Source: Nereocystis luetkeana
Lineage: Eukaryota; Sar; Phaeophyceae; Laminariales; Laminariaceae
Reading direction: 5' to 3'
NCBI GenBank assembly: GCA_031213475.1
Contig: JARUPZ010000026.1
Coordinates: 636,501-700,500, forward strand
DNA length: 64,000 nucleotides
Positions within the stretch are counted from its first letter, which is position 1, and every line of letters starts with the position of its first letter. The notes under the pieces were generated by a model that was not told where the DNA came from, searched no databases, and was given only the letters and a program-made list of their open reading frames with translations. Shown here one piece after another: positions 1-64,000 of the stretch. A program made the translations under genes and the position numbers.

Positions 1-700
1 TAGTACCCCATTGCAGCGCGAGCTCCAACAATGATCACCGATAAACACTCCCTGTGGGGCTCGTGCATGGAATATCACATTGTCATTCCTACGTATAATA
101 TATCTTGTGGAAATAAATTCATGAGTGTCGTACTGCAATATAATGGATCACGTTATGGATCGAAGCTCGATAACCCAGTTCAGTACTTGAGTCGGAGTAG
201 GGAATCAATCAGCGCTTTTAATTGGTACCTGGCATGACTTATGAAGTTGGATGGGGGCAGTTTACAAGGTACCAGGTAACTTAAAAAAAAATTGAACATA
301 ACGCCGATTTTGTTTTAAATGCAGTACTGCTGTAGGTGATGTGTATCCTGAATCGGCGTTTCCGTTAAACCGAGATTCCTAGATCGATCTATCTCCTAAA
401 TCGAATCGTGTGCCTTGGAGGTTGGAAAATGAATCAATTCACACACCCATAACCTCTTAAGGCCAACTATTGCGGTATAGAAAAATATTTCCGGGCCGAA
501 TATTCGTGTTCTACCCGAGGATACAACAAATTCTTCAGTTTGTGTCTTAAGTTCGCTCGATGGGTTTTTACGTATTCGTATTATTAATAGGGGGTCAAAA
601 ATCGGGGAAACAATCGAAACAGAAAATTGTAGAGGCTAGACCTGATATGTACCAGATATAATGTGAGACTATCTACTAATAGTACGGGAGTTTTTAAAAA
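1..700. other. Gene-less stretch
   Basis: I see no coding signature, RNA gene or repeat family here. The only notable word is one TACCAGGTA near 268, a member of the dispersed TA-bounded micro-palindromes described in the findings. Confidence 0.5.
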
Positions 701-702
701 GA

Positions 703-1145
703 TCTGTAAGATTTTTCTTTTTTGCCGAAACTCGCGATTTACTCGGCGGGACTATCAAAAACATCGGTACACTCTTCAGCTTTCCGAGAGCTGTCCGTGG
801 ACAGTTTTCGTTTCTCCAGAGTCTTCGTTGGAGTTTAGGCGAAAGCAATCAGTTTTCTCTGGAGGGTGAAACAGTATAGGCTGTAAATCGGAACTGGGGC
901 CAGAAATAAATAGTGAGTCAGTTAAGATATTTGGTGAAATATCATGCGGAATATCCTTGAAACGGGCAATGCGGACGAACAGTCAAAACCACGACTCCGG
1001 GGAAACGAAAAACAGCCCAAGAAAGCTCGGGGGAAACTGAGGGGAGCCTCCTGAAAAATCTACCCGTGTTTTTGACCTTCCTGCCGAGTAAATGACGGGT
1101 TTTCGGCAACGGCAACAAAAAAAAACTTCTTAGAGCCCTTTAATT
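703..1145. repeat. Imperfect inverted-repeat (foldback) element
   Basis: The segment 703-835 is repeated in inverted orientation at about 983-1145, with a spacer of roughly 150 bp. Shared blocks include ATTTACTCGGC, ATCAAAAACA / TCAAAAACA and TTTTCGTTTC with CGGAGTC/CAGAGTC. By eye the arms are about 75-80% alike, with several small indels. This geometry fits an old foldback DNA transposon or MITE. I could not fix a target-site duplication, and no second copy was found in the window. Confidence 0.5.
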
Positions 1146-1373
1146 TTTCCCCGGAATAGTTGGTCTTACATTGTACCTGGCATACACCACGTTTTGTCTC
1201 TCCATGTTCCTGCTTCAAAACGTTTCGTCTATTTTTGCTCAATTCTGTCTGTCGTCCCCTAACACGAATAAATAAAAATCCGACGAGCTTGAGACATCAA
1301 CTAATTCATTGAGTTTACCCACCCGTACCCCCATCAATTATGTTCTCCAGCTAACCTCCAGCTCCAATGTTGC

Positions 1374-2060
1374 GTGCATTTTTCACACCTTCTCCCGCTC
1401 GAGGTTTACAATCTCGTCCAACGCTTGCGTCATCTCGACTCCCTCGTGCCCGTGCCATGTGTGATGCGATGCGATGAGCAGATGCAGACCAACTCCCGAG
1501 CCTCCTCGTCGGCGGTCGACAGAGAGGCGACGCAGACCAGCAACAAGAGAAAGGCTAGCGCGTTCTCTTCCTCGGAGACGAAGCACCCGTTCGCTCTAGA
1601 GATGGCGCCCGACAGTCTCAACGCGTCGGCTTTATTCTTACCATTGGCGGCTCCCGCCGCGACAGCAGTAGCGCCTTCTGCCCCGACTGTTGCCGCACCC
1701 ACCAGCGGGCGGAGCGATAGAGAGCCACCGGGGCTAGGGGGTGGGGGGGGCGCTCCAAGAGGCTGTGCTCCCGTTAGCAGGGAGGGCGACGGAGAACCGG
1801 CAGGGCACGGGAAAGGAGGGGCGCTAACAGGCGGTGCTCCGCTAAGCGGGCGGGTCGACAGGAGGTCGGCAGAGCAGGCGGGGGGCGGGGCGGCGTCCTT
1901 GGGCGATGCTCCTCTGTTAACGGCGCTCACGGTGAAGACGGTGGCGGAGCTGGGGCCGGCGGCACAGATGGCGCAAGCGACGAGGACGAGCGTAAGCGCG
2001 GGCCGCGTGCGTGGCTCGTTGTCTCGCAGAAGCTCCAACGCGCACGGACAGGCGAGTGCT
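1374..2060 (+). CDS. Possible coding region, Gly/Ala/Pro-rich, unrecognised
   Basis: An open frame of about 230 codons runs through a GC-rich block before a TATGG microsatellite takes over at 2089. From about 1690 the DNA is a loose ~70-bp tandem repeat (four units) that encodes SGRSDREPPG, SREGDGEPAG and SGRVDRRSAE-like peptides in one frame. The opposite strand is also open over the same span, so the coding strand is not certain. No family is recognised. The first in-frame ATG context is unremarkable and introns could exist. It may equally be non-coding GC-rich minisatellite. Confidence 0.25.
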
Positions 2061-2088
2061 GCGTGGTTCCTGTGTGGTGGCGGTTGTG

Positions 2089-2272
2089 GCATGGTATGGT
2101 ATGGTATGGTGTGGTGTGGTATGGTATGGTCTGGTATGGTATGGTCTGGTATGGGATGGTATGATATGGTATTGTATGGTCTGGTATGGGATGGTATGGT
2201 ATGGTCTGGGTATATGGTACCAGGCATGGTACGGTATGAGATGGGCACGGTATGGGTATGCAGTATGGTCCG
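2089..2272 (+). repeat. (TATGG)n microsatellite
   Basis: About 180 bp of TATGG pentamers with TGTGG and TCTGG variants. Open frames that run through it on either strand are by-products of the pentamer and not genes. Confidence 0.95.
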
Positions 2273-2279
2273 AGTCAAG

Positions 2280-2868
2280 CGTGAGATTTCGGCATTTATT
2301 TCCCAGCAGCCTTAGCACGAGCCGAAATACGGTTAGAGCGTAAGCACGGGCAGCTCGCGCGGGTCACCGGCTCGCCGCTGCCCGGACGTGCAAAGTCGGA
2401 GGATTCTTGAATACTTTGATTGATACGCACCGGTGCGAAGGCTTTACCTACGGCAGTACCATGCACCTGGTAAAGGCTTTTTTAGCACTGCTGCTGTATC
2501 GTGCGTGTTTGGGTCCTAGCGTGGGCCGCGTGCGTGGGTCGCCGTCTTGCCTTGGCCAAGACGCGAAATTCCAGCGCGATCTTTCCTCAAGCATGAGTTG
2601 ATGATACCCCGTACGTAGCCTGGTGTAGTACCGATATACAGACAGTAGGTAGTGCCCGTTTAGAAGGATTTGCATACTGTAACGTTTCGCGCACCAGTTT
2701 CAATCCACTCTGGGTGGACTTCAATACAAGCAACGTTTAGACCTTCGTAGGAAGACTGAACGGTCCTTACATATTCGTCCAGTCCGGTGCGGTACACCAG
2801 CTATAATATATACCTCGCACCAGGGCATCGCGACATTGCTGTGCAGTACCAGGTAGTAAATAGTAATG
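2280..2868. other. Gene-less stretch with a short direct duplication
   Basis: The words around GGGCCGCGTGCGTGG at about 2003-2020 recur at about 2523-2540, so part of the GC-rich block was duplicated across the TATGG array. Nothing else is recognised. Confidence 0.4.
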
Positions 2869-3842: not shown

Positions 3843-4056
3843 GTATTATTATGTATTACTATGTATTACTGTGTATTACCATGTATTTCTATGTATTACT
3901 ATGTATTACTACGTATTACTATGTATTGCTATGTATTTCTATGTATCACGATGTATTACTATGTATACCTACCTGGTATATATTGCTGTGTATTCCTGTG
4001 CATTGCTACGCTGTACCAGGTATGTATTACTGTGTTGTTATGTATTACTATGTACT
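3836..4056 (+). repeat. (TATGTATTAC)n minisatellite
   Basis: About 220 bp of a 10-bp unit with TATGTATTTC and similar variants. It contains two TACC(A/T)GGTA words. A shorter array of the same unit lies at 48105-48176. The array starts exactly at the TACTATG end of the preceding MITE relative, so it may have grown from that end. Confidence 0.95.
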
Positions 4057-4586
4057 TCAGCCTGGTATGCATATTGCAGCCTCGAATGTAATGCTATGAT
4101 ACACCGGAGTAGCCGACCGGATGTTATTGTCCAAATAACTAAACATGGGAATACCGAGGACCAAAGTGTCCATATCAGATCTCAAGATGAACCCAAAAGC
4201 TACTGTACGTTTCCCCCCCCACTCTGTTCCTACATTACATTCATATGCAGGCGGTACCACCTACCAGGTATATTAATAGGGACAGAGCGATTTTTTTTTG
4301 TTCTGATTTACCCTCCGTAATAGTGGTTCAATGGGATTACCGAGGACCATACTATACATACAGTATAGTGTTCAAAGCCTCCGATGGATCCAAAAATCAC
4401 GTGTCCCTCTTCCTGGCATATGGTACATGTTCACGCGCGATATTTGGTCATGGTCGTTGTTCAATGGAATTTCCGGGGGGCGTCGTAGCCATGTCCCGTG
4501 GTTAACTCAAAACACCATGTGCGGTATTTTGGTTCTGACTTACTATCCGCAATAATAGACGGTCATTGGGATCACCCACGATGAAC
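4057..4586. other. Degenerate repeat stretch
   Basis: Loose repeats of a motif like TGGGATTACCGAGGACCA occur at about 4143, 4331, 4460 and 4575, roughly 115-190 bp apart. This suggests an old, decayed tandem or MITE-derived array. No gene is visible. Confidence 0.35.
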
Positions 4587-7269: not shown

Positions 7270-7272
7270 ATA

Positions 7273-10387: not shown

Positions 10388-11225
10388 TGGGGCGTACTCA
10401 TTTGTTGCTCGCCTTAGTCATTTGACCATTGACCACGCATCCCTTTCGAGACGGAGCACGGTACCTACTCCGAATAGAGACACCTCCTGATAGAGACAGT
10501 TCGATGCCCAGTACGTCCTTTTCATACAACACATGGAAACTCTGTGCCAATCTTACGTATCCCCTTCCTGTTTGGCTGTCTGTGGCCACCATCTATCTCG
10601 TAGGATAGCGATCGTTGTCTCGCCACGTTCTGGTGTAGTGTACCAATCTCCTCCATATCACATGCTTGTATTTCCCTCGTCTCTTCTTCTAACACATCCC
10701 GTTCCTCCTTGCACATTTCACATTCTCCTACTATGTGAATTCTACTCTCTATTGCTTTGCCACACGGGCACATCTGTGCACCTACTACCCCCCCCTCGAG
10801 GCTACTGGTATACCTCTCCCTCTTCTTCCTGGCAGGTCCAGGGCCCCTACACGAAATCGCAGTTTCAACGTTTTCGCGAAGCCCATCGGGCCGTGCAAAT
10901 ACGTTTTCACTCCTATCCCTTCGCCCAACCCTCCGCGTCGTGACTCCATTTATTTGCTTCTCTTGTCCCTTATTTTCATCCTTTTTTTTTGCTGCTGTCC
11001 GTTCTTTCCATCCTTTTTTCCGCTCCTGTCTTGTACTTCACGAACCTCTCTACGGACAACACCTCTCCTTGGTTTCCTCCTACACCCTTCGGCACTTTCT
11101 TGACTACGCCATCCCACCATATTCGAGCTCGCCCTTTGTTAATAGTTGCCTTCCCCCATGCAGCTCCATCAGCCTTGGCTGGCAACCTCTTTTTTTTCTT
11201 AGGGGCTACCTGGTACTAGTCAAGA
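10388..11225 (-). mobile_element. LINE fragment, C-terminal part of ORF2, decayed
   Basis: Minus-strand frames encode GVKTYLHGPMGFAKTLKLRF, then CPCGKAIESRIHIVGEC and a Glu-rich stretch, then RAPSRKGCVVNGQMTKASNK before a stop and the C-rich end. The C-x-C ... H-x4-C pattern is the knuckle that ends many LINE reverse transcriptase polyproteins. The reverse transcriptase core itself is absent, so the copy is 5'-truncated. It is broken: the reading frame changes near 10810 and again near 10600, and there is a stop near 10976. The tail module is shared with short copies at 30377, 35408, 35530, 35757 and 62486. Confidence 0.75.
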
Positions 11226-13100: not shown

Positions 13101-14960
13101 TACCTGGTAATGGGTGCTGTACGAAAAAAAAGCGTAGGTGTTGGGACCAAGGGTCACGTCAGGGGAAGTACCCCAAGCGTTTTTTACACCCGCGGGTTGT
13201 GGGCCGCCGCTGTCAATAGCGCGTCAATGGCCGTGCATTCCCCGCCAAAACAAAGGGTCAAAAGGCCAAAGGCTTGCAAGCAATTAGGTTGGCTATACGA
13301 CTCGCACGAGAGTGGCCCCGAGCCCCTCCGTAAAATGTCGACGTGCTCCCCCTGCCGCAGCCTTGGCCGTCCCCCTACTCCTGCTGCAGCTGCTGCTGCT
13401 GCTGCTGCTGGTTTTGGTGGCGGCCTTGGTGTTGGTGGTGGTGTTGATGTTGATGTCTGTTTTGGCTTTAGGGGGTACGCCGTTTTCAGGCCGATTGTTT
13501 TGGTCCCCGAGGCTTTGAGCGTTGATTGAGAAGGCTATCGGCCTCTTGGGGGGGAAGATGCACCTGGTAGCGTCCAAAACCATGGCAGACTCTAGTAGGC
13601 TTACATACGCATAGCTAGATCCCGCTTACCAGGCATAGCTTGCCGCGTGCCGAATATGCAGGGCATTGACGTCCACAGCAGCGGCTCAGGCGTTTGGGAG
13701 TGGGGGTAGGGGTGGGGGTGGGATCGAGGGTGTTGGTGAAGAAGACGTGCACGACAGACCATCCAGCCAAGGGCGGGACCAAGCAAGCCACCAGGTGATG
13801 GTGGTGCTGGTGGTTGTTGTGGTGGCGGTGGTGATAGGAGCTTTCGTCGTGATGTCTGTGGTGTTGGTGATGGTGGTAGTGGTGGCGATTGTGGTGGTGG
13901 TGGTTTGGTGGTGGTGGTGGTGGTGGTGGTGGGGATGGGGCTTGTGGCGGCAGCCTATGGCGTTTAGGTTTGGAAATGACTTGTTCAGCTTAAAGCTTCC
14001 CTAGACGCTTGACCACATGAACAAAAAAAAACGTGTCCACACGTGTACGATAGCCTATAGACGGGGCTATTTTCGGTCATTCTCTACAAAAGTAAAAAGG
14101 CAGACTTGGCCGAAATGTGTACGGGTAAAACGCACAGAGGCTTGCCCTACTGACACTGGCAGTTTCTTTGCAAACGGCGCGCTCGAAATAGTGACGCGCG
14201 GCACAATCGGTCCTTTCCGACATGATCTACGCCGCCGCCTATATCGAGTAACGTCATGTATCGCCTCTGTCCCGGGCTCTATTTCTCCTACCCTCCCTGC
14301 CTCTCTGTCCCCCTCCTGCCTCCTTGCCTTCACTGTTTCGAGACGCCTCGCTGACATCAGCAACTCCCATGTATTTAGACGATCAATCTTCTAGACTTAA
14401 CCCTCGTTTTACAATATTTTCACCCCCTCCCTCCCTCCCTCCCTCCCTCCCCCTCTCCCTCCCTTCCTTTCTCCCTCACTCCCTCCCTCTCCTAAGGTGG
14501 CCCTAGAGGTTGCCATCAGAGACCTCGCCGCTTCCCGGCATCGATCAACCGTACCAGGATCAATAGACAGCCGCGGCCACCGCCGACCCAGCGCCGGACA
14601 CAAAACACGCGGTGGTGGTCGTGGTCGTGCCGGCGGCGGGGGTGGTGGGAGAGGGCGGCGCGGGGTGGGATTGCCGCTGTCTTCCAACGGGACCGGAATC
14701 CCGCGAGGGGGGCAAGGGCTGGAGGCGTTCTTATCTCTGGATCATTCCGTACAGGTTAAGACAAACTGGGGTGCTTACGACACGGGCGACGTTTTCTGGC
14801 TAGTTGAGGGCTTCTCCGCTTGAGATACTAACTTACGTCGCGCGTGGGTTGCAGAAATTGTCGTTACAAAACCGAGGCCATTGGGTTTGCTGATCGGTCG
14901 TTGTTGGCTGACCTTCAGGGCTCCCCGAGTGAGTGTCTCGACCTCAGAAAGTTGCAGGTG
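13101..14960. repeat. GC-rich low-complexity block
   Basis: The block contains (CTG)n at about 13381-13412, GGTG/GGTGTTG repeats at 13415-13460, a G-rich (GTG)n array at 13798-13935 and (CCCT)n at 14424-14490. Frames are open on both strands and encode homopolymeric Ala/Leu/Ser, Val and Arg/Gly tracts. A minus-strand stretch at 13293-13583 (Asn/Thr/Ser-rich) could be a low-complexity exon. The coding strand cannot be decided by eye. Confidence 0.5.
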
Positions 14961-16750
14961 CATCGCTACCGTAGTACCCGTCTCTGGTAGTCTCGATCAT
15001 GCGGTGTAGACATGTGTAAGATACCCATCCACCCCTGAGAGAGATCTACAGCGTCCCCTTATTACTGTATACCTGGGGGGGTCTACAGGCTTGCACGAAA
15101 AGCTTGGTATTTCGTCATTTTCCGCCGTATCTTTGGAATTGATTCCTTTCAATACTGCACTACAGCAGTAGCGTGGTCCCGCTCATCTGTTCTTGTATTT
15201 TTTTTACATGTACGAGTAGGATTTACGAGTTCGGAAGTACTTCATTCCGGTCATTATCATTACCCTGCGCTTCTGTGTATATGGGGTGTGTTGTTCGTTA
15301 TTCCATCCCGTAATAGCCGGCTTTCCTGCTGTTACTGGGGGTTTGCCTCGCCGATTTCAATGATAACCGATTTCAGTCATTTTATTTGTTTGTTCCGAGT
15401 TGTATTTCCCTCACAGTCAAAATGTAACCCAAAATACAAGCCCATTGAATGCAAAACCAGCCGCGACAGGCTCGTAAAACAGAGGATGCACACAAGCAAA
15501 TTGGCCTTTAGGGGCAAGGCGCCTCACCCAAATGCCGGCTATTTTGGAATTCGGGGTATCGAGACTGCCGTTGCTGCCTTTATTTATATATATATATATA
15601 TATATAGTTGGTGGCTTCGACGGCTGTCACAAAAGCAATTTTTTACATTGAAATTTTTGACTGCGAAGGGAAAACATGAAAACATCTCTAAGGAAATAAA
15701 ACCCAATGTTTTCGATAATCGCTCTGATCGGAAAGGCAATATCTCGGTTACAGCACAAAAATCGGCTGTTCCATCGACGTCCAGCACATCAAGCCGCGTG
15801 TCCGTGCTGACTCGTACGCCTTGATCCTACAGCGATACGAGCTCCGTGGTCACAAAAATCAAGATAGGACAAACACATCGAAAGTAAATTTGTTGGGAGG
15901 AGATCAGACCACGACACGCTATAACATCCCCAACAAACAGGATGCGACAAACACCCCATGTACTCGCACCCGATCCAGTGAACCAAGCACATCGTAGGAG
16001 ATAGAGCAAAACCGACAAAGTACAACGATGACACGACACAAACAAAAAAATCTCCTATTCCAGCTGTAGACCACGCACGTTAAGGCGTGCTTTAGTTTTG
16101 TACAGGCCAAGACCTGCCTCAACCTGGCGTCGGGCGACTGATCGATGATCCGTCCATGACCAATGAACAACACAGGCAAGCCTTGTTGACGCGGAATTTG
16201 AGATACGACCGGGCGTGACAGTACAAGAGTCGGGCCTTCCCGATGGCGCGGCATTAGGACAAGAGTCGAGGGCGACGGCGGAGGTGCTCCGTTCGAAGTC
16301 TGGCCCGGCGACGATGCCAGTGCCCGGGAGGCTCAGCCGAACCGCTTATAAGGTATTGTACTGACGTGCAGGCTTGGGTTGTCGGACGTTTGTTTTTCTT
16401 TGTATTATACGAGCATACTGCGTCCCACTTTTGCGGAAGCAATATGTTATTAATACGGATTGACCCTCCCCCGCCCCCAAGTAGTATAACCGGGTTGTGG
16501 TCAAGCTCCTGGCGTCCGCGTGTTTTAAAGAAAACAACCCATTGAGGCAACTACAGCAGATATAACTCAAGACACGAACCCATTGCTTTCACGTATTATA
16601 TAGTTACGATGGTACAAAACTAACTACCAGGTACTTCGAAGTATATACGTACGTAAATACTCAAGTATCTTCGTACCTCATTAAGGGACTTACAGTAGAC
16701 ATATACACATGAACATATCCTTTCTGGAAGTAAAAAAAAAAACTTGATCC
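14961..16750. other. Gene-less stretch
   Basis: A (TA)n run lies at 15583-15606. The minus strand is partly open at 15820-16250 and 16254-16550, but the peptides match nothing I know. No repeat family of this window is recognised. Confidence 0.35.
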
Positions 16751-16752
16751 TG

Positions 16753-17660: not shown

Positions 17661-18102
17661 ACAAAAAACACTGTTACTTTCATTAGAGTGTATGCTAGCC
17701 TTCGAGCCTTACCGCGACACCATCCTGAAGCAACCTCGAGCACAGAACTGGCGGTTGTCCTCAACTACTTAGAAAAAATCGTGTCCGATGCGATGAGGGC
17801 GTATCATCGTGTCTTAAGAGCAGCCTTTCCCTCAAGAGTCAAACTGTTTATCCGATCCGGTAGTTATACCTGGTACCAGGTATTCATTTGTGGAATATGT
17901 GCTGTGAATCAACACCACCAATAAAAATCCACGTCAGGATCCGCAGTCTCGAGATATCGATGATCCAAGGAATCGATATTTCGGGGGGCGGGGGGCGCTT
18001 CCCCCCCCGACGCACCGATTCACTTATATTCCCTGCTTCACGCGCCTGTCAAGGCTGTTTTTTGTTTTGTTCATTGAAGTCGATACCTACCGTCACTTAC
18101 TA
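17661..18102. other. Gene-less stretch
   Basis: Contains the double word TACCTGGTACCAGGTA at about 17868. No gene is recognised. Confidence 0.4.
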
Positions 18103-18207: not shown

Positions 18208-19854
18208 TAGTATTTCGTTCGCCATCGGACAATGTGCAGCCACTTGTTTCATTGATACAATGCTGCTGTACTTACATATTTTACGGTATTTTTTTACCTT
18301 TGAGGAACTACATCTCTTCTTAAAAAACAAAACAAACATATTTCGGATGTCGTTTACATAGGAAAAGCTACCCCCAGTTACAGCAGGGCAATGAACGGGT
18401 GCTACGTACGGTGGGGGGGGGTCGCTTCGAGGTCCTTAAGTTTGAGCCGGTCATAGCCGGCCCTCGACAGAGTCACTGCTCCACCCACTCCTTCGCCGCG
18501 TTAAGTTTGATGACGCTTAGTGTCTCGATATAAGCACCGCCACGACCATTGTTACGCTGCGCCAACCAAAAAGTTCCAAGTCATTTTTTTCAAGTGAGAT
18601 TCAGAGCCACCTGCCCGAGTGACCTACATAGAACGCGGTAGCGAAAGTACTGGCAGCACACCCCCCCCACACACACACAAACACACACTCAGAAACAGGT
18701 TAGCTGCAGAAATAAAACGAGGGCAGGCCCGGGGAAAAGACAATTACCGCGGTCGCCACCGCATGGTGATATACAGCGTGATGTATCGTGAGAGCTTCGA
18801 CACTCTGTCGAGGGGTAAAAAATAGCCAGAAACACTACAGTAGAACGCCACAACAAGCGTCACAACCAAGGACGCCACAAGTGTTGGGGTTTAAAGAGGA
18901 ACCAAAACAGCCTCCACGGAGCGTCAAATGTTGATCACCCATATATACCAGGTATACCATGGCCAGCGATCCCTAGAAGAAGAGAAAAAAGCCGTCCTTG
19001 AAGAGAAACCACGGAATGAAGAGAACCCACAAGTTCACTCTCACGCGGATATTTAAGGATCACTTAGACATCAATAGGAGGAGTAAGCGTTCATTTTTTT
19101 CAAGGCGAGAGAGATAACTCGTATGCATCGATGCGCGTTGCACAGCTCCCTTATGTGTATGCTTCCAGCTTATTAACTGCCTGGTATCTTCAACAGCCGT
19201 TCATCAGCGTTACTAGTGTTGTGTTTGTGGTGTGCTGGAGTAGAACGAGTTTCGATATCGACCGCTCACAAACGCCGACAGAATCACCCCCAGATACGAC
19301 AAAAAAAATACAACATCAGTACGTCTGGCCACCATCCGAATATGTAAGTGCAGCACTAACCACTGTTCCACGTCGTTCGCTCTCCTATCATTCTAGCCCA
19401 CACATCGCTCTCATGATATACCTCTGGAATCCCCATCGATGCTCATAACAAACCAACCATTTTTAAATTGTTCTTCTTCTACAACGTAGGAAAAACCCAC
19501 GAGGCGGACCCTCGACTGCTAGGAGGGTCCAAGGTTTCCAATGGATTCGATGGAGGCGATGGTCAACCGGGGTACAACAACGGTGAGAAAAATAGCGATA
19601 GTATACTGCTGTAGACTACCGAATATGACAGTGTGGAATGCACCCCATCTTGCATACGCGGCACACCCCAACAGTATACAACCCGGGTGGCCCTAAGCTA
19701 CCACCCGAGTTATCACCCGGGGTACGGTGTACAGCACACCCCCTGAGATAATGCCTCATAATCTGCAGGCGGGTCGGATCCTGCGGGTACAGCAGTATAT
19801 GGCCACCGTTGTGATGTGCTGTGAAAATAGTCCCATCCCAGACCCGTTATCTGA
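18208..19854. other. Gene-less stretch
   Basis: A short piece of R4 (CCATCGGACAATGTGCAGCC) lies at about 18223. The rest is unique-looking sequence without a convincing exon. Confidence 0.35.
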
Positions 19855-21203
19855 AGGACTGCTACGTAATCAATGTCAGCGGATGGATGTCGCATTTTCA
19901 CGTATTGTAGGGCACGCGGTTGAAGGGTGTGCGTATTACATTTGTTGCGCCATACCTGGTACCGGGTATACAAGGAAACGGGTAGTTGGCAGTCGGCGGA
20001 GTGTTCTGCCAGATAAGTGTTGATTGTAGGATTGGAGAATTCCAGTAAACGTATACCTGGTGGTATTTTCCTAGCAACATGCTTATCTGGGATATTCCTC
20101 GGGAGCATGTTGGTACCTGGTATATAGCAACCATGTATGAATCGATGTATCTTATAAAAGTTCGATAGGTTGAGACTTCGGGATCTAGTTCGAATATATT
20201 TTGCTTTGGTGAAGTACGATACCAGGTACCAGGGTATTGAGTAAATTCTGGTGGAGAACAGAAATAATCTTTGTACCCTGGGATATTCTGGTGGCTTGGG
20301 GGGGGGTAATAGGGAGATTATGCTAACCCGAAGGTCAATGGAATTTTTGTGTGCCTTGGGGAGAGGAAGGGTGAGGAGGAGGACCCACGTCGCACACCCG
20401 TCTATTTTTTTTCCTCTCCCCAGCCCAAGACACTACAATTTCTACTTTGCTTCACGCATTCTCCTCTCTACATCGTTCTACACCGAGGCAAGATCTCCCT
20501 CCCCGCAAGACTATACGATCCCCAACGCACGACACTGCCTCGTACGCTAGCGTGAGTTAATCTCCGCAACTCGTGCCGAGATTCCGGGAGCAGGACGGAC
20601 ATCTCGTCGCTGTCGCCTCTTTTGAGGAGATAAAAGCAGGACCTACAAGCCCACATCGACCAGCAAGACAGCGAGAGAGTAGCAGCAGCGCAACAAGCCT
20701 TTCGAGATGCCAACTCAACTCGAGTCGAAATCCAGGAGCGGTGAGGACTCCAAAACGGACGGCCTCATGGAGAATATTGCAACTGCATTCAGCGGAAACC
20801 ATGCGCAGCAACAACAAGCGGCAGCTGCAACTCAGCCAGGCATGCTAGGAGTCGGTCAAAGCAGCTATAGGTCTGGAATGCTTGATGGGGTTCTTAAGCC
20901 AGGGAAGAATGTAGATAATAAGGTTTTGATTTTTCAAGCTCAGTTGGCTGTGTCTATGGGGGAGACAGGTTGTTTGGAAGCGGTAGAGTCGCCCATACCC
21001 ACTAGAATAGGACGCGAGGGATGCAGCGAGGCGGCTTCGAAGGCAAAGTTTTGGGAAGGGTTGATGGCAAAGGCACTCACTGCATGGAACGTGCTGAAGA
21101 CTCAAACCGCGTACCCAACCAAGGTACAGCAAATTGCCGGACTAGGCAGCCCTATTGGGGCATGGGCATTTTTTCTCAAGAATTACGCCCGTTGACAACG
21201 AGT

Positions 21204-26473: not shown

Positions 26474-26960
26474 CAGTATGATAGTACGATAGTATGATAG
26501 CATGATAGCATGATAGTATGATAGCATGATAGCATGATCGTACGATAGTATGATAGCATGATAGTATGATAGCATGATAGTATGATAGCATGATAGTACG
26601 ATAGTATGATAGTATGATAGTACGATAGTATGATAGCATGATAGTATGATAGTAAGATAGTATGATAGTAAGATAGTATGATAGTATGATAGCGTGATAG
26701 TATGATAGTATGATAGCGTGATATTAGGGGTGGCCCTTTTGGGGCAAAGCACAGTTTCTCACCGATGTTTTCACTATTATTGTTCAGCAGATATCTCACT
26801 TCATCGGGATGCACTTTCAGTGTTCTCGATGTCGCCGGCTTATTGGGTGGGGTATACTATTTATTGTATCAGTATAGAGTACCTGGTATACTACTAGCAG
26901 TATATAGTACTAATAGTAGTGTAGATCATACTATCAGTAGCATATAGTGTACTAATTGTA

Positions 26961-27073
26961 TTACGGGGGACCATAGTTAATAGGACCAAATATTGTTACT
27001 AAAAATGGTTAAATATACCAGGTATAGGTTTTTTATGTATATCATAGGTCCTATTAACTATGGTCCACCGTAA
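26961..27073 (+). mobile_element. TA-MITE copy with CCAGGTA insertion
   Basis: TTAA-type copy. The interior reads AAATATACCAGGTATAGG where sisters read AAATATATAGG, an exact seven-base CCAGGTA gain after a TA. Confidence 0.95.
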
Positions 27074-27230
27074 TAGCAGTGTAGAGCTTATCGAGTGAAG
27101 GCCCTCAGAAAATAGTACAGCAGGTGCGTTCTTCCATGTTTTCGTCGATAATGTGGGAGAAAAACTCTACCAGATATATACCAGTTTCAAGGGTGCCAGG
27201 CATATCATATACCAGGTACCGTAGTATGTG

Positions 27231-39600: not shown

Positions 39601-39719
39601 CGCCCGCCTCCTAGCGCTGCAAAGCTTTTGTGTCACCATCTATCTCTTCGTATAATTTGCCTTGCTATGGCGGTGGGGGTTCGGTGTTCAATACCTGGTA
39701 CCTCCTTCCCTCACTTGTA
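39601..39719. other. Short spacer
   Basis: Contains one TACCTGGTA word. No gene. Confidence 0.4.
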
Positions 39720-40737: not shown

Positions 40738-41253
40738 TACTATTACCAGTTGCAACTCAGATCTGGGGTCAATTTATACCAGGCGTTCCTTGTACATACG
40801 TCCAAAATGATAGTGAGATATCAAAGAAAGAAGGGTTATAACCCGTCTGGAGCTCGACGATCGGTCGGTCGGTCGGTCGGTCTCCAATCGGTCGGTCGGT
40901 GGCAAATATCGTCCGTAATAAACTCGTGATCTTTCTTTCTGTTGGTACTCGTATGGCACTACTATTGTATACTTTGTGTAACGTTTGCGTGCGAACATCG
41001 ATACCTAACGGTCCTTACATTTCCGTCCAGAGCGATGGAGTACAGGGGAACTTATCATATCGTACCATATCATACTATATAATATAATATAATATCATAC
41101 CAGTACCTGGTATCATATTATAGCATACCTGGTAACTGGTATCATATAATATCACATCATATGATATCGTATCTTATCGTATCATTTCACATAATAGTAA
41201 TAACAACCAGACATGGCGTGTAAAGATGGGGGGGGGGGGGGTTACCGGTATTA
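40738..41253. repeat. Short microsatellites
   Basis: (TCGG)n lies at about 40858-40907 and an ATCATATAAT-type array at 41055-41190. The array contains two TACCTGGTA words. A G-rich run lies at 41229-41241. No gene. Confidence 0.6.
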
Positions 41254-45684: not shown

Positions 45685-46429
45685 TACTGTAGGTGGGTAC
45701 ACCTGGTTGCTCAGTCCATCGTAGATTCTGATTATTAATATTAATAGTATGCACTACTTCATGTACTACTATCCCCCCCCCCCCCCCCCGCCCCGCGAAA
45801 AGCTGCTGCAGTCTGAACAAGGCTTGCTGCTTGAGCAAAACATATTTTCACGCCAATCTCGAGCAACCTTGGGCATACAACAAACAGCACATTGTTATCT
45901 ACCTGGTAGGTCTCATTGAAGCGACCGCCGCTGAGCACAATTAATTTCTTACTCGAATTTTCTTAGCGTCTCCTCCGAAAAGGGAGCCTCGCGTTCTGAT
46001 TCGTTGTATCCTGTTTATGGACCTACAATATTAAAAGTGTGCCGTACTTCGTTACGATTCAGGGGTAACTGTTTAGTGCAGTGTTGGTCGTTCTCCCAGT
46101 ACACGACGCCAACTCTCCACTCTCCGCGTATCTAACCCGGATACCCTCGATTGGTATTGCTGCAGGATAGCGGGCTGTTTCGTTTTTATTTTTTTATGCG
46201 GCATCGTATTTTTTTACGTATCGATACGCATGTAGCGTAGACTCGGAATTAAAACCTATGATGCGTGGGTGCGTCGGCTAGGCTGAGAGCTGAGAGGCAA
46301 TGAACAGCCAGCAGTAGCATCTTTGGGTCGTATGATATACCTGGTACCTGGTATACGAGTATGATACGAAGCATGATATGATAGTTTAGTGACAGCAGAG
46401 GTTGCACCTCTCTATTACTACATTATCAA
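45685..46429. other. Gene-less stretch
   Basis: A C17-type run lies at about 45771-45792. The double word TACCTGGTACCTGGTA lies at about 46340. No gene. Confidence 0.4.
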
Positions 46430-46518: not shown

Positions 46519-48104
46519 TTAATACTAGGATGAAGAATCGGCATGGACACTGGGCGTGCTGAGTGTCGACGGGTAGAAAGAACGGTTGAATGTGAACAAC
46601 ACGCACACACCCAGAGGGAGGGGGGGGAGGAGGGGGGGGAGGAGGGAGGGAGGGAGGGAGGGTCGGGGTGAAGCGGGGGTTGCGGGCAGCATTCAACGGA
46701 CCAACATGCGGCCGCAGCAACCTGTGCGCGGGAAGTACAAGCACCCAAGCACGAGCAAGCAGGACTTTCGCGTCCAGATTATCCAGCGTTGGAATCACTT
46801 TACGCCAAAGGAGGTCACGCTGTCTTCGGCGAACCACTATGGGCGGGAATGTAAAAACCGCTACCATTAATATCAATAGCCAGAGATAAATCTGAAGACC
46901 AAAAGGCCCTTGCAGTGTCGGTATGCTGTCAAGTTGATCAGGCATAAAGGAGCCCAACTTCAAGTGCGTCATCGTTTCTGGCCTCCGGCGTCCTGTCATA
47001 CCGGTATGAATAGTATTAATACTAGTGCCATGATTCGTATTATACAGTACACAAATTGTGCTGTTCTTACGCTGTGCGTCTATACGTTAAATTGACAGGA
47101 CGCATATTTATATTGTACAGCAGTATCAGTACGAACCATAAATGCGACATCAATAGCTGCGATTGCTGACTGCTGTAAGTATTTTTGCAGTGATACCATG
47201 GAAGACACCGGTTTTGAATTACCTCCCTGCCCCGAGGCGTAGGGATCGTTCAAACTATAAACTTCGAATCCGAACGTATCCAATATTTCTGGACAGAGTC
47301 GTACAACCCATTCAGAACTGCGCTCCTGTTTTACTACCAGGCGCTTCATTCACTATTCTCGTGGACCATTATTTAATAATTTAATAATAATATATAATAT
47401 GTAATAATGCTGATAATAACACTGGAATACTGGAATACCGTAATACTGCTGTGATACTGTAGTAATACCGCTAAGATACTACCAGGTATGTAATACTGCA
47501 GTAAAACTGTTATACCATACGCGCACGTATCATAAGCAGCGTCCAAATCGTTGCAGGCGTGCGATCGTTTTTTTTGTTTTGTTTCAACGACACGGCAAAA
47601 AGGGGCGAGCCATCCCTACCGTGGGGTGACTCGGGCGGTAAAGTCGAACAATCACATTCTACATTATGTTCGGAAGGCTCTCTCTCTATACTGACAAGAC
47701 CAGACCTTTCCCGACAACGCCTCCCTTGTTCCGTATCGGCAACCTTAACCTTCCCGTTCTGGGGCAGTTCGAGCGCAGAAAACCGACCGCACCCCTGTGT
47801 GATAGTGCGAACTCAAACGTTCTTGCTCCTTACGGTAATACCAGGTATGTATTAGTATCGCAACGGGCTAACGACAATCTTGGAGCAACGGGGCACACCA
47901 ATAATCACAACCGCACGACGTCTCTGACTGTACCCTACCTGGTATACTTTACGTGCATATCCGTTCCTCGGCGGTCCATATGTGGTTTTGGGGGGGCATA
48001 AGGGATTCCGATAGCTACCAGTCTGGACACAAACATAATGATCGTTCAGACATCAATAGAGACACATAGTGTTCTTTATATTTCGGGATAGAGTGCTACT
48101 AATA
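46519..48104. other. Gene-less stretch
   Basis: The segment 46525-46610 (GAATCGGCATGGACACTGG, GTCGACGGGTAGAAAGAACGG) duplicates about 45415-45490. (GGGA)n lies at 46612-46662. Both strands are partly open at 46590-46990, with no recognised domain. Confidence 0.4.
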
Positions 48105-48176: not shown

Positions 48177-48662
48177 AGGCCTATCCTAATCAGTGAGTGC
48201 GCAAACATACAAATACAGCACCGTAACGCAGCAGCAGCGCCGGGTTCCAAGCATACGCCTAATAATAGTATTGGCGTGGTCAAATGCTGTCACCCTTGGC
48301 GATTGTGTCGTCTGTTTCGCCTCCCAAGTCCCCAAAGCCAACCGCGTCAGTAGGTAATACAGCAGTGGAGGGGTACCGCTGTACCCGTTTTAAGACCAGC
48401 CCGTGACAACCTCTATACCAGGTACACAGTAATAAACGCGGTATTATCTCTAATACCGTCTTATATTTCACTGCACTGGCCATACTCGTTTCGTACTTTT
48501 TTTCTGCTGACAAGCCTATTTGGCTGGTCTCATCTCCCGAAAAGTCTTCGAACGGACAGATGCTCTTGAAGGGGGTACCCCACTATAGTTGTACTTCAGA
48601 CCACTCAGAGCGGTATTATAACAACCGCTTGTAGTCTGATGACAGTATCAATCGTTTCTTAT

Positions 48663-50364: not shown

Positions 50365-52769
50365 GGGTACAAAACACGCCAAGCTGGAATCGAGCTCCAC
50401 ACAGCAGTAAATCGAGCCGTTAAGCTCCGCCTCGCAAGCTGCTGACCTGGGTGATCGACGATCTCGGTGGGGGGTCGAGCGACTGGTACGTGCTGACGCG
50501 GTTTGCTGTAGGTACGAGCGAGCCAGGAGGTACGGCCAACCCAAGCCTAGCTGAGCCAAAGCCAAGCTCGCAAGCTGCTGATCCGACTGGTGATCTCGGT
50601 GGGGCTTGGGGCGACTCCAATATACTCTGATCGTATATAGGAAGCTGTGGGGTATTTACGGCATTTACTGCTGTACAGCAGTAGTATCAGTAGCCAGCAG
50701 TAGTACTCAAGGTTTTCACCCGATGTACTGCCTGATAGTCGGCCCTGCTTTCACCGCTTGTTGTGCAGTGCGTATCAGTACGTACTGGTAGTCGTACTTT
50801 TCCTCTCCCTGCCCACCTCTCTCCCCGATCAAGCTGCGAACATCAACAAGCATCGTCGTGGGTGATTATCACAGGGCGCGTTGGTGTTAGATGTCGGTGG
50901 AATAGGAAATATTATTCTGCGGGTGATGGCGTACAGGGTGGTCAGCGAACAGTGATCAGTGATACTTTACACTACGAGTACTGCCGTCTGTATACACCGA
51001 CTACATGCAAGCGCTTGCGATTTTGCGCCAAGCTCGTGAACCAGAAAGCGGGGTACCGTTCGCAACTTACTATCACCAGCCAGGGAGGGAGGCAATGTGG
51101 CTGAACAAAGCCAACAGATGCTGCGGACCTATTCATCGCTGGCTGATGGCCTGCCGCCGACGTCGATCGGAGCTGCCAGCCCTAACCCTCTCACCGTTCT
51201 CGCCGAGTAGAGTGCTTTCACCAGGCGTAGGTGTTGTGGCGTGGGCTGCAGTGTCGGCTGCTGTGCTACTGATCTGCTGCTGAATGTTGTTCTGGCGGAA
51301 CATGGTAATTAGCCCGCCTTTTTCGGGGGGTCTACCCGAAAATGCGGCAGAACTGGTGTCGTTTCGAATATATATTTTTTACTGGTGACTGGTGCACGCA
51401 CTGGTGCACGACAACGGTTCGCACGTTCGCACGCTGGCACCAAAGATGTTGCACCAACACCGCAGCACATCCCACGTATTACGTACGTTGATCTGTGTGT
51501 TCACATGCTTACCACACATCCACACATGCACATGCACGCACGTGTACATACAGGAGGAGCAGGAGCAGCAGCAGCAGCAAGTAGCAGTGGCAGCGTGGTG
51601 TGAATGATTGCATGTGATGAAACAAGAGAGACTGGAGTCCGTCCCCCGCCTACCAACACTGACTGGTGAAATATCCCCGCCCCAAGATATTATTCATACG
51701 AAGACGATCTTGATCGATCTTTCGCAGTGCCGCATTCGCTTGCTGCAGGGGGCAGGTGGGGGGGTCCTTTTCGGCAATACAGCTGCACATTCATATATGA
51801 ATGCACATATATATATGGAAGTGATGGGCTGCCCTCGCCCTACCTGGTACCCGCCTTTTCGTTCCTGCAGTATACTGGTGTAGTAGCACGCTTGAGGCGG
51901 GGAGCAGCCCGTGTAGCCGACGAGCTATCCAGACACAAGCTATTGGCTTGCTTCCTACCAGGTGCTAGTGCACTGTGTCCTTTTAGATGGATCCAAGAGC
52001 TGTAGGATCAAAATGCGCCACTCGCTAGCCTGCCTATCTATACAGAAAACACGAACATCATCCACCTCCTGCGTATTGGATCACCCTCTGCAATCTTTCA
52101 GGTGTATGCATACTGTTTTTCATATATATATCAAGAGCGGAAGAGGCATGTACGATAGTGAGACTCACCAACAAACACGTGCGTACTCATGTGCTGGTAC
52201 GTCAAGATCAGCTGCAGCATTTACAGGGAGTATTTCAAACATTTTTCAGACTTGGTGTGCCTGTCACGTTTGAACTACTGTTGTGGATCAACATTCGATT
52301 GCCTTGTGTACCCCGACCCTCGCGTGTCGTTCTGCTGTTGTTTCAGTGCACGAAATTGTACTGGCCGACATCAATTGGAAGTCGAGCCTGCTGTAAGTAT
52401 TATCGTCTCGTCGACCCTGGTAGCATCCAGGGGAGTCACCGGCCAGTAGTCAATCGCGGGGGGAATAATGAAACACGCGAACGGTCAACGCAGCTTTGTG
52501 TCTACGCAGCTTCACTTCACTCATCTATCAGCTGTTTATTTACGCCGGTGAAATTCTTTTGTTCTCTTTGTGTGGTAAACAGCTCCAACTGGATACACTC
52601 TCACGCTGCTGCTATTACTCATGGAACTGGGATCGACCGTGGTGCACTCTACTCTATGATACGCACAAACTGCTGCTGCTTATCGTAGGGGGACATTTGT
52701 TCAAGAAAGGTAGTGACGAACAAAGTTGTATGTTCATATGGGAAAAAAATCCACTTATCATCAGATTAT
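50365..52769. other. Gene-less stretch
   Basis: The 5' flank of the ankyrin gene holds a ~60-bp duplication. Further on there are CAG/CTG words (51550-51595) and TACTGCTGTACAGCAGTA at about 50668. Several short frames exist; none is recognised. Confidence 0.4.
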
Positions 52770-54223: not shown

Positions 54224-56370
54224 GGTGCATCCTTGGGGAAATTCGCGCCTCGAGTACTCGTACGTCGTAAGAAGAATACATTATTTAAAATTTTGGTAAA
54301 GGTTTGCGGAAAGCCGCCCATTTGATTGTTATTTCACCAAAAACGCGCTTTTTCGGGAGTGTGCCTGTTCCTGGTGGTCCTTTTTTGGGGATTTATGTTC
54401 CGAAAATAGTTGGATCATCTGGATCATGCTCGTTTTATTGCTAAAACTAAAAAAAAACGCCAAGTATGCTATCAACAGAAATTCCGCTACTACTAACAGC
54501 AGAAGAAATATAATCCTACTCCCTCCCCATTCTATATATACAGCACTACTACGAGTACTCTATAAGAAATCACTACGATTTGGTATATTAACAAGCATCT
54601 AAGCGAGTTTTCACGCCTCGGATACAGTATTATAGTGCGTTACCATGTTGGCAGGCGATCGCTTCACAAAGTGTTTAGAGCGATAACTTACATGGCAACC
54701 GTATAGTGCCACGTACGGTGTTATATCATAGGGTCGGCAGCCCGTATCGACTACAGTAACATACTTTAGCTCGTAGGGTTTTTACGGGAACCCTATTGCG
54801 TACAGTATCACACGCCAGGCAGATCACGTATACCAGGTAGTCTCTGGTATGCGCGATCTAACATTACGATGTACTTCATATTACTGTGTTAGATGCTGCA
54901 CCCATCCATACCTGGTACCTGTTATGTGTCTATTAATAGTAATACAGTGTTAAAGTGTGAGCAGGAATCGTAATTAATTGCTATCGGAAGGCAAGGTAGG
55001 CGGGTAACGCACACACATAACCAACCAACCTAACGCTAACATGGTGGCACTCTGTATTACGTGGTGTGCCGGTGAAGCCCACAGCCAGCAACATATATCT
55101 CCTCGCGATCATCGCGACACACATCATCGGAAAAGGTATAACCTACAGAATGCTAACGTTGACATTATGATACCCATGTTTGGCAACCTTGTAAATACTT
55201 ATCAGTATAGTTTAACTATTGGTAGCATCAATATCGTTCCATGATATCGATGAGGGTCAGGACTTTCGTTCGAATCGAAAAAAGCAATTTTGTGCTCTGT
55301 TTTACACGTGACTTTAGTATAGTCCCCCCTATCTAGCTCTCGGAAAAGTAGGACTTTGCGGTTCCAATTTTCTTGGTACACTAATTACACGGCAATCTAT
55401 ATGGTCAAGTTATTTGTTAACATATTAGCATAGTGTTTCACCGCGATGACGCTTCAAGTGTTATACTGCAGAAGAAACACGTGTTAGATCTCCGCAAGAT
55501 ATGTACGGTAACATTCTATAGTAACATAATGCTACGTACATACTATCATTTGGGTCAACGTAGTAACGTAGCCTTAAAGCCAGACCTTGACTTCAGACAC
55601 ATGTTGACAATATGTTGAACACCCCTCGGTATTTAAGTAACATCCTAACATAGTGTTACATCGGGACCAGCTCCAAAGGCAACTTCGCTAACTTACGTCA
55701 AATGTGACGTTTTCCGACCCCAAGGAAGACTAAGAGGGGGTCGAACACCCTTCGAATACCACAATGTTGGGGTTCTGGAAAACACGATTGTCACCTCTGA
55801 CATTGAGCTAACAAGTTTGCGAATCGTTGGATAGTGATATGTGCATGTTAGGTTCATAACGTATGAGTCTGCCCAAATCCTAAGACTGAGTTACGATGTT
55901 TGTACGTGCATCAATCACGGCGCAACGCTATGTCACCGTACCAGAGCCGACGAGATCGAGAAGAAACATAACGTGAGTGCGTTAAATAATGTCCGTAGAT
56001 ATGCACCTATTAATAGCACTATATAACCGCGATGCGCCATTGCTCCCTCAGTGCTCGCCCTATGTTAGAACGTGGCGAAGCCGCTGTATTAGGCTCCACA
56101 ACATAGATAAGCGGTATCCGAGTGCTACGTTATCCGATCTGTACATAGCTTTGCATCCATTCCCGCCGTATACCCAGTTTATAAGATATGTTCATGCACT
56201 CATACAGAACTACCGCTGGTCTAACAAGGCTCTGCATTTAGTGGAGCATCGCGCCTGGTCCTAAAAAAACTTTGCATTATTACTACTAATAACAGCGCTG
56301 CAGCTGGTCCATGAAAGCTTTGCAGACATTCCGGCCACACGGCTGATCAATAGTACGAGTGTTCACACCA
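54224..56370. other. Gene-less AT-rich stretch
   Basis: AACATAGTGTTACA-like words recur at about 55430 and 55650, and CTGGTCTAACAAGGCTCTGC-like words at 56219 and 56330. No gene is recognised. Confidence 0.4.
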
Positions 56371-56379: not shown

Positions 56380-56705
56380 TCACGATCTAGATAATCTAGA
56401 TCGTTTATATCATCTAGATCGTCTAGATCATGTATATAATCTAGATCAACTATTTATAGATCATTCATTAATATATCATTAGAATCCCAACCTACCGTTA
56501 GGATATGCTGTGTAGCATCTGCATCCTATACCAGGTATGTGGTACAATTGTTTGCAGCCCAAGAAAAAAAAGCTAGATCATGCAGATCATTGTACAGCTC
56601 CTACGCGGCAACATTACCTAGATACATTTAAATCAGGACTAGCTGCCCTGGCATATCTGTGCCCTCAAGTAGGGATCTGATCTATCTGATGATCTATCTG
56701 ATGCG
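56380..56705 (+). repeat. GATC-rich dispersed repeat, diverged
   Basis: GATCTAGATAATCTAGATCG and GATCATGTATATAATCTAG units, with GATCTATCTGATGATCTATC at 56680. The conserved core is not kept. Confidence 0.5.
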
Positions 56706-62468: not shown

Positions 62469-62552
62469 GGGGGGGGGGGGGGGGTACTCATATTGTTGCT
62501 TGCCTTATAGTCATTCGGCCATTGACCCCCACATCCCTTCCGAGATGAACGG
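62469..62552 (-). mobile_element. LINE tail module with poly(C) end
   Basis: Minus sense: GGGATGTGGGGGTCAATGG, CCGAATGACTATAAGGCAAG, CAATATGAGTA, then a C17-type run. Only the last ~65 nt of the LINE are present. Confidence 0.7.
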
Positions 62553-62598
62553 GGGGCGCCGTTTTAGCTTTTCATCGATAGACAAGATTTTTTTTCAG

Positions 62599-62959
62599 AG
62601 AAAATCACACGCCACTCTTGCTCACCGTCTTGACGCGGTGCTGCTACCCTTCCCAGACGAACAACAAGAAGAGCTCTGCGCGGTTGGCGCAGAAGTGGCG
62701 GAGGACCCCCTTGGTGAGCCTCGACCGCAGACGCTCTGCCGTGGACACGGAGACGTTCGTCCCGGAGGTTCCCTGGTGTCAGCCTTTCCCTCTCTACCAC
62801 CCGCCTCCGGTGGCCGTAGCCGCCCTCCATCTGCTTGCTGCCCTCTGCCCTAAAAACGCGGGAAAGGTGCACGCAATTCAGGCAGCAGGTATCAAAACGA
62901 AACGCCCCAAATGTAGACCGTTTCAAGCGGCGGCTTGGCGGGAATCGCGCCGAATCTAG
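62599..62959 (+). CDS. Possible exon, unrecognised
   Basis: TTTTTTTTCAG (a strong acceptor shape) is followed by a ~115-codon open frame, including LAQKWRRTPLVSLDRRR and YHPPPVAVAALHLLAALC. The second piece faintly recalls the helix of a cyclin box, but the match is too short to name. The minus strand is also open and Arg-rich. Confidence 0.25.
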
Positions 62960-63519
62960 GCCTCTACCCAGGCGGCGGGTGGAAAAGACACGCGTCTAGT
63001 CCAGGCGCTTGTTTCGTGGATAATCAGGAGATGCATCAAGTTCACGCTGATTTGCGCAGAAGCAGGGGAAGATACATCACATTCAGGCATGCGCACGCGG
63101 ATACACGGGAAAATTATTAATTCCAGGCCAACGTCACTCGCGGGGATGCGCGGGAAATGCACCGGGTTCGAGCCAATGCAAGCGGATGGACAGAGTAGAG
63201 TGCATCCCTGAGAATAACGCCTACCGGTTGACGTAATGACTATGAAACCGGTGAGTTGTTGTTCTCGTATTAGCTAATTTGTATTAGGCATTTTATTGTC
63301 GAACGTTGGCCCGTGGTCACAAAAACAGGCTAACACACAGAAACGTCTCGATGGCAGAAAATAAGTACGAAACTATATACCTGCAGCCGCCGTATGGATT
63401 AAACCCGTGCGCAAGCGTGCGGCACTCCCAAGGTGCGGCATACCAATCCGTATCACGTGCGAACCGAAAACAAAAACAGGAGCATGCGCAGAGCGCTTCG
63501 AGTGGATAGAAGGCGCACT
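62960..63519. other. Gene-less stretch
   Basis: No repeat family or gene is recognised. Confidence 0.35.
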
Positions 63520-63720
63520 TCTATGCGAGTCGACGAGGAAAGAAAGGACCGCGAAGTCTTCTCGCGGTTGAAAGTGGAAGGCAAGAACCGTAGTGGGGAG
63601 GAGGGAGAAGAGCCTGCTATGCTGCTATGTGACCCCGGATCTGAGTTACGACTAGGGAGGATGTATAAAGTAAAAAATGGCGAAGATATTACATGGGACG
63701 AAGGAACAAAAAAGACATGG
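63520..63720 (+). mobile_element. R3 retroposon copy (empty-site witness)
   Basis: Sense copy: ATGCGAGTCGACGAGG, GTGACCCCGGATCTGAG, TTACGACTAGGGAGG, then an A-rich end (GGAACAAAAAAG). It lacks the TA-MITE that interrupts the copy at 17220. Confidence 0.75.
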
Positions 63721-63907
63721 GGCGTGCACCCGAACAAAAGGAGGGGAAAAAAAATGAGCAAAACAGGAGTCCGACGAAGACAATGTCACATTCTGCGTTG
63801 GCTGGGCCAAAAATATTGGTGTGTCGCTTTTCATCGGGGAGCACTGGCCGTCTCACAGAGTGTTGCTAGGGGCTCTATATATGTGTGCTGACTAAATCCC
63901 AGTGTGA

Positions 63908-63960
63908 CCCCTTCACCTCTGCATCCCCGTTCTGGGGACAAAACACTTGAAATTAGAGTA
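63908..63960 (+). mobile_element. piggyBac-like MITE, one arm
   Basis: CCCCTTCACCTCTGCATCCC, CGTTCTGGGGACAAAACAC and AAATTAGAGTA keep one arm and the centre. The other arm is not seen before the window ends. Confidence 0.55.
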
Positions 63961-64000
63961 GGAGCATTTTTAGAGTTGGGGAATGGGTAATAACCACATT

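Follow-up and report, generated by a model that had tools for sequence, protein, structure and literature searches.

RESULTS

A nine-base palindrome dispersed through the window and the genome

We analysed a 64,000-base stretch of the genome of the alga Nereocystis luetkeana (here called the window; C26:636501-700500 of an assembly of 465,085,209 bases in 1,987 contigs) and the nine-base palindrome TACCWGGTA (W, A or T) that recurs in it. The window contains 40 exact copies, 19 with A and 21 with T at the centre (Table 1). An earlier note, made from the letters of the window, had counted about 40 by eye, and all 12 of the coordinates it named were correct to within 2 bases. When all four centres were admitted (TACCNGGTA), 41 words were seen, compared with 1.7, 1.2 and 2.0 expected under Markov models of order 2, 3 and 4. 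The runner-up among the odd nine-base palindromes in the window was TAGGNCCTA (13 seen, 0.5-0.8 expected), and a repeat in the window contains a word of this form. The copies of TACCWGGTA are dispersed and mostly single units with differing, unrelated flanks; three pairs are doubled.

The excess extends beyond the window. We pooled the window with 19 samples of ten kb each (L009-L027, of which one includes 2,500 N) into a 254-kb sample, in which TACCWGGTA was present 110 times against 2.4 expected. Ten other palindromes of the same shape occurred 0-5 times there (0.8-2.7 expected); the exceptions were TACCSGGTA (S, G or C; 10 versus 1.7) and TAGGWCCTA (22 versus 0.8). The whole genome holds 182,395 exact copies, or 0.39 per kb compared with 0.63 per kb in the window, a 105-fold excess over the 1,744 copies of a control, the word read backwards. 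Because TACCWGGTA is its own reverse complement, forward and reverse counts refer to the same sites. The excess is real and strong, and the genome-wide enrichment predicted in the earlier note holds. Among the titles and abstract openings listed by full-text literature searches, whose scope left out preprints and most subscription papers, none describes this word as a scar found across a genome.

A 7-bp insertion into TA gives rise to the word at the sites compared

We compared copies of repeats, in place of allelic or sister-strain sequence. When the window and samples were aligned all against all, a word lay within 126 of the alignments; a flank filter retained 66 of these, representing 11 distinct word sites. 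At five of these, at least one alignment each showed a clean 7-bp gap that leaves a single TA in the homologous copy (Table 1). Alignments at the other six (three at L014, L024:7548, and window 28956 and 33821) were untidy or AT-rich. Repeat copies with and without the word differ by CCWGG plus one TA, and the L014 homolog of the site at window 27016 carries a related filled form, TAAACCAGGTA. Filled sites have two TAs and empty sites one, a duplication that is a feature of Tc1/mariner/pogo-type footprints. Thus, wherever comparison was possible, the word arises by insertion of 7 bp into TA, and the alternation of plain TA with TACCWGGTA foreseen earlier is what the empty repeat copies display. 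A search of 6 kb of the small contig C60 for a second near-identical place, as a haplotype comparison, found none.

A list of gaps drawn up blind to the word yielded seven tallied TA-bounded 7-bp insertions. Four were CCWGG, one was CCTCG, a single substitution away from CCWGG, and two were unrelated (CAGAC and CTTAA). TA-bounded insertions of other lengths are also in this list, the commonest being GTCG, at 10 places; this 6-bp insertion (CGAC on the other strand) was seen near L024:4395 and elsewhere (10 plus 3 places), probably within a single repeat family.

One repeat position could be counted across the genome. The window contains several copies of a very abundant 109-bp miniature inverted-repeat transposable element (MITE) with inverted ends TTACGGGGGACCATAG and TTA/TAA borders, which we take to be PIF/Harbinger-like, judging by its ends. 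With exact flanks, the empty inner site (GGTCC-TA-TTAACTATGG, that is GGTCCTATTAACTATGG) was found 21,233 times genome-wide (10,503 + 10,730), and the same TA filled as TACCWGGTA was found 424 times (217 + 207). The other two insert forms counted, a C or G centre (CCSGG) and the 3-nt CWG, numbered 6 and 2. Reversed controls for the four counts were all 0. The filled fraction is therefore 424 of 21,657 empty-or-CCWGG copies (2.0%), and 98% are empty. A MITE parent that was already filled may be the ancestor of some of these 424 copies, which would then not be independent.

The insertions show a palindromic target preference

From the sampled word sites we took 278 flanks and removed 31 that resembled a second scar, which left 247 (139 sites) to be set against 37,658 flanks of ordinary TAs. 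The cleaned flanks were symmetric: +1 favoured T or C (A, 0.06), +2 A (0.42), +6 T (0.48) and +7 A or T (0.81), and the controls had no preference of comparable strength. TA occupied +6/+7 in 59 of the 247 cleaned flanks, compared with 8.1% for ordinary TA; this preferred second TA sits 7 bp off, the spacing of the inserted unit. The preference at positions 1, 2, 6 and 7 is palindromic, as in Tc1/mariner/pogo-type elements, and such symmetry would be expected if a dimeric transposase made the insertions. Leaving aside locus ends, the 337,145 sampled bases contained 18,829 TAs. This density implies about 26 million TAs in the genome, so that approximately 0.7% of them carry the exact word.

The word seems to decay and occurs in two orientations

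Forms with one mismatch to the word numbered 119 in the 254-kb sample, whereas three control palindromes gave 42, 43 and 60; the window had 31, compared with about 11-15 when the controls are scaled to its size. The three largest mismatch classes were all transitions, at positions 1 (T to C, 16), 2 (A to G, 19) and 3 (C to T, 15). Given this excess, the word seems to decay rather than to be maintained, and the total of scars, decayed ones included, should exceed 182,395. These data bear on the possibility that the word is a selected DNA signal, such as a protein-binding or methylation site, comparable to HIP1. Its exact palindromic form, its very high copy number and the 105-fold excess over the control would suit a signal, and CCWGG is the recognition site of Dcm and EcoRII. 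However, at the compared sites the word was gained by a 7-bp insertion and not by point mutation, the one-mismatch forms exceed the controls, which is not how a maintained site would look, and the tested MITE position lacks the word in 98% of exact copies. The insertion polymorphism largely refutes a selected signal, which we regard as very improbable.

The earlier note had attributed the A/T centre to repair of a central mismatch. TACCAGGTA is the reverse complement of TACCTGGTA, so a single inserted duplex in two orientations accounts for both, and the near-even count of A and T needs no mismatch repair; on the A/T count alone, that argument is unsupported, since the same 5-mer is read from either strand.

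The doubled form TACCWGGTACCWGGTA occurs at 15,917 sites genome-wide versus 2 in the control. Such doubles, together with tandem heptamer arrays of the word in bacterial genomes, could suggest that the word is a microsatellite with a heptamer unit, (TACCWGG)n, or travels as part of a dispersed repeat family. Against this, the window copies are mostly single with unrelated flanks, the 182,395 words far outnumber the doubled sites and so are not generally head to tail, and plain TA stands in the empty copies at the five clean sites. Furthermore, 19 of 59 listed doubles have their units in opposite orientations, which excludes simple tandem duplication as the sole route to doubles. As the main explanation a microsatellite is refuted, and we give it almost no credence. 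Counted over all 127 loci, TACCWGGTACCWGGTA was found elsewhere in 9 stretches of viral contigs and at least 118 of other genome contigs, and 19 of the 127 were picked for sequence display. Tandem TACCWGG arrays are present in unrelated bacterial genomes (L104, L111 and other loci), and the matches in other genomes and viruses look like chance or bacterial heptamer arrays.

Transposases and candidate source elements

The genome was searched with transposase profiles in six frames, read straight through as intron-free sequence. For DDE_3 of Pfam, 30 candidates were scored and none matched at E<=0.001 (in 3 of 14 control genomes the family did match), and Transposase_1 had 0 matches, which is uninformative as it likewise had 0 in every control genome. 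Transposases of the DDE group are present, with 28 matches to DDE_1, none of them tied to CCWGG ends. A pogo-like element at L028:38-2061 reads TA-CAGTGGGG...CCCCACTG-TA, with inverted ends of only 8 bp. L030 (from 1222) shares with it the left end and segments of 395 bp (99.7%) and 288 bp (100%), and the deletions in the two differ. The pair probably reflects recent activity of a pogo-like element, and near-identical copies of this type suggest recent TA-type transposition in the genome. Another DDE_1 element, at L038, ends in TA-CAGTACCGG. Inspection of wider flanks at L031 revealed no recognisable element ends, and the 8-bp repeat CCAAGTAC at L029, considered as an end, is probably a chance match. 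CAGT ends such as these predict a CWG scar; with so little CWG at the tested TA, L028/L030 and L038 are probably not the source.

No full-length element starting CCAGG or CCTGG, as called for in the earlier note, was recognised in the 337 kb sampled or in 12 of the 28 DDE_1 loci. The residue between the TAs is a single 5-mer in two orientations, and no element with such ends was found there. The 109-bp MITE, the commonest TA-flanked inverted repeat sampled, does not begin with CCW. By eye, no common extension beyond the word was recognised in 112 rows of TACCWGG without a following TA, of which 104 came from the window or L009-L027 and a small number of the remainder from overlapping loci; TACCWGGCAT recurs among these rows and fits T-to-C decay of the common TACCWGGTAT. 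No CCW ends were recognised by eye among the long insertions between repeat copies (about 80 of 383 rows). The only CCWGG-ended pair in the sample, 163 bp long at L018:8691-8857, was unconvincing, being a weak inverted repeat with no second copy in the sample.

An element whose ends share only CC...GG is another conceivable source. Fill-in of a 2- or 3-nt overhang, with a single A or T (untemplated or mispaired) retained at the centre, would give CC-W-GG. TA-flanked inverted-repeat candidates that start with CC exist, at L017:3779-3947 and at window 21112-21278, the latter a near-perfect 163-bp hairpin between two TAs with ends CCCAACCAAGGTACAG, present as a single copy in the sampled DNA; the rarity of a G or C centre also fits. 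Yet the 6-nt CCWWGG scars that this route predicts are few (5 seen, 1.2 expected), and a special rule would be required for the added base. We consider it quite unlikely.

The failure to find a source element in the sampled DNA would also be accounted for if no transposon had ever been involved. An enzyme would cut a preferred TA with a 2-nt stagger, and repair or nucleotidyl transfer would write CCAGG. An enzyme of the alga writing CCAGG and a duplicated TA directly, about 180,000 times, templated or untemplated, would be a new kind of 7-bp insertion. We know of no enzyme that writes CCAGG into TA sites. In favour of such an enzyme, the scar (424 CCWGG, 6 CCSGG and 2 CWG) is more uniform than the 0-4 bp described for Passer (PMC9976928). 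On the other hand, the TA duplication and the palindromic target preference match insertion by a transposase, and the genome has TA-flanked transposons. Direct writing therefore appears unlikely.

Other features of the window and genome

The remaining features of the window are an ankyrin-repeat frame, the only clear Pfam match among 20 scanned window frames, a tRNA gene and long tandem arrays (Table 1). The EsV_1_7_cys domain has at least 150 matches in the genome (150 scored of 1,713 candidates), and its proliferation in brown algae has been described (PMC12477816). One GC-poor contig (0.31) carries adjacent Cpn60- and Hsp70-type genes. This is the arrangement that we would expect of a red-lineage plastid, and together with the domain matches it makes a brown alga the probable host.

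Table 1. Words, repeat copies and other features, with positions in the window unless another locus is named
Feature	Position	Strand	Remark
TACCAGGTA	270..278	.	exact word
TACCAGGTA	2847..2855	.	exact word
TACCTGGTA	3970..3978	.	exact word
TACCAGGTA	4014..4022	.	exact word
TACCAGGTA	4262..4270	.	exact word
TACCTGGTA	11207..11215	.	exact word
TACCTGGTA	13101..13109	.	exact word
TACCAGGTA	16625..16633	.	exact word
Double TACCTGGTACCAGGTA	17867..17882	.	words at 17867 and 17874
TACCAGGTA	18946..18954	.	exact word
TACCTGGTA	19953..19961	.	exact word
TACCTGGTA	20114..20122	.	exact word
TACCAGGTA	20220..20228	.	exact word
Double TACCAGGTACCAGGTA	24135..24150	.	words at 24135 and 24142
TACCTGGTA	25101..25109	.	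exact word
TACCAGGTA	25116..25124	.	exact word
TACCAGGTA	25200..25208	.	exact word
TACCTGGTA	26880..26888	.	exact word
TACCAGGTA within 109-bp MITE copy	27016..27024	.	plain TA in many aligned copies
TACCAGGTA	27210..27218	.	exact word
TACCTGGTA	28956..28964	.	exact word
TACCTGGTA within MITE copy	29711..29719	.	single clean 7-bp gap in 10 of 13 listed alignments
TACCTGGTA	31182..31190	.	exact word
TACCTGGTA	33821..33829	.	exact word
TACCTGGTA	39692..39700	.	exact word
TACCTGGTA	41104..41112	.	exact word
TACCTGGTA	41126..41134	.	exact word
TACCTGGTA	45900..45908	.	exact word
Double TACCTGGTACCTGGTA	46338..46353	.	words at 46338 and 46345
TACCAGGTA	47480..47488	.	exact word
TACCAGGTA	47839..47847	.	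exact word
TACCTGGTA	47936..47944	.	exact word
TACCAGGTA	48416..48424	.	exact word
TACCTGGTA	51841..51849	.	exact word
TACCAGGTA	54831..54839	.	exact word
TACCTGGTA	54909..54917	.	exact word
TACCAGGTA	56529..56537	.	exact word
Clean-gap word sites	window 27016, window 29711, L023:5925, L009:5266, L012:3808
MITE copy carrying the 27016 insertion	26959..27075	.	113 bp between flanking TAs; 105 in many listed copies
109-bp MITE copies	7271-7379, 26132-26240, 26959-27075, 33302-33410, 42946-43055, 44848-44956, others
Ankyrin repeats, 533-aa open frame	49057-50655	-	no word copy inside
tRNA-Asp (gtc)	52769-52842	+
Long tandem arrays	37123-37585, 26238-26716, 38449-39230		TCAG, ATAGTATG, CGGGT-type units

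DISCUSSION

The words TACCWGGTA are, as a rule, probably excision footprints of a TA-targeting cut-and-paste transposon, which we infer to have been present and to have left. This was also the interpretation of the earlier note: its change from TA to TACCWGGTA stands wherever it could be tested, the transposon itself is likely, and the A/T count by itself lends the mismatch-repair argument no support. In the proposed sequence of events, a cut-and-paste DNA transposon would insert at TA with a 2-bp duplication; when it leaves, end joining would retain both TAs together with CCAGG (CCTGG on the other strand). Tentatively, and with somewhat less than even confidence, we suggest that the element ended in CCAGG/CCTGG and that its 5' strands were cut 5 nt inside these ends, so that identical, largely self-complementary 3' overhangs annealed. 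The overhangs would pair like restriction sticky ends, a lone A:A or T:T mismatch being held between four G:C pairs; such annealing would explain why the scars share a 5-nt length, why CC..GG is fixed and why C or G is rare at the centre. A small number of copies, jumping conservatively over a long period, could leave more footprints than there are elements.

Several observations weigh against footprints. The first is length. Excision footprints are reported as 2-4 bp for Tc1/mariner elements (PMC7913693) and 0-4 bp for Passer (PMC9976928), so one of 5 bp, which exceeds the Tc1/mariner range, would be a variant; at the MITE site the residue was 5 bp in 424 cases versus a 3-bp CWG in 2. The TA-type elements with known ends start with CAGT, and the 3-nt CWG scar that they predict is nearly absent (2 versus 424), while no TA-flanked element with CCWGG ends was found in the 337-kb sample or the 12 of 28 DDE_1 loci. 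The centre is skewed at the MITE site, with 67 A and 33 T among 100 places listed of the 424 (p=0.0009). Counted by eye, these 100 gave A:T ratios of 38:8 on C1-C3 and 29:25 on C4-C7. The skew may reflect a bias in repair or in insertion, or the inheritance of filled copies along with the MITE; its concentration on C1-C3, with little on C4-C7, may point to such inheritance. Among 59 plus-strand doubles listed of the 15,917 (four rows belong to two triple units), 40 were concordant and 19 discordant in orientation (p=0.009), and this concordance exceeds the prediction for independent events. The spectrum of variants is not one of plain transitions, with only 3 C-to-T changes at position 4 and transversions raised at some positions. 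Finally, shorter forms are in excess in the 254-kb sample (TACCGGTA, 19 versus 3.6 expected; TACCWGTA, 24 versus 10.9); they may represent rarer kinds of scar or the loss of one base.

If the words are footprints, the genome preserves some 180,000 events of transposition and departure as a fossil record that can be counted and read from nine letters without the element. Natural transposition rates, target preference and repair outcome could then be measured at very large scale, and the alga would have had a steady supply of frame-shifting 7-bp insertions in its evolution.

Among known systems, the scar of Sleeping Beauty, TACWGTA, is also self-complementary with an A/T centre, and derives from CAGT ends that leave a 3-nt CWG; TACCWGGTA resembles it in form. 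Like the Tc1/mariner elements Sleeping Beauty and ZB, the word sites combine a TA target, a TA duplication and a few bases between two TAs. The preference of ZB for palindromic, AT-rich targets (PMC7913693) is a further likeness, in that the target preference here is palindromic too. Unlike Tc1/mariner, the residue here is 5 nt (CCAGG) rather than 2-4 bp, with few counted alternatives at the tested site and 182,395 copies. A uniform, self-complementary 5-nt scar would imply a cleavage offset beyond the descriptions of Tc1/mariner in these two articles (PMC7913693 and PMC9976928). The pogo-like elements of the alga itself (L028/L030, L038) are like the expected source in having TA at their ends, a DDE_1 transposase and near-identical copies, but their CAGT ends predict CWG, which was seen twice against 424 CCWGG at the tested TA. 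The mobilome of Ectocarpus, also a brown alga, has been described as holding 17 Mariner-Tc1 families with 11,912 copies, mostly non-autonomous, and in the main text of that article "footprint" and "palindrom" each have 0 occurrences (PMC12477816). The word also resembles HIP1 of cyanobacteria, a short exact palindrome that is likewise frequent throughout the genome (PMC4390886). Unlike HIP1, however, the compared copies are 7-bp insertions with a TA duplication, and they show no sign of maintenance. The internal eliminated sequences of Paramecium are likewise bounded by TA and are removed by a transposase-derived enzyme; their precise excision leaves a single TA, whereas here five nucleotides and a second TA stay behind.

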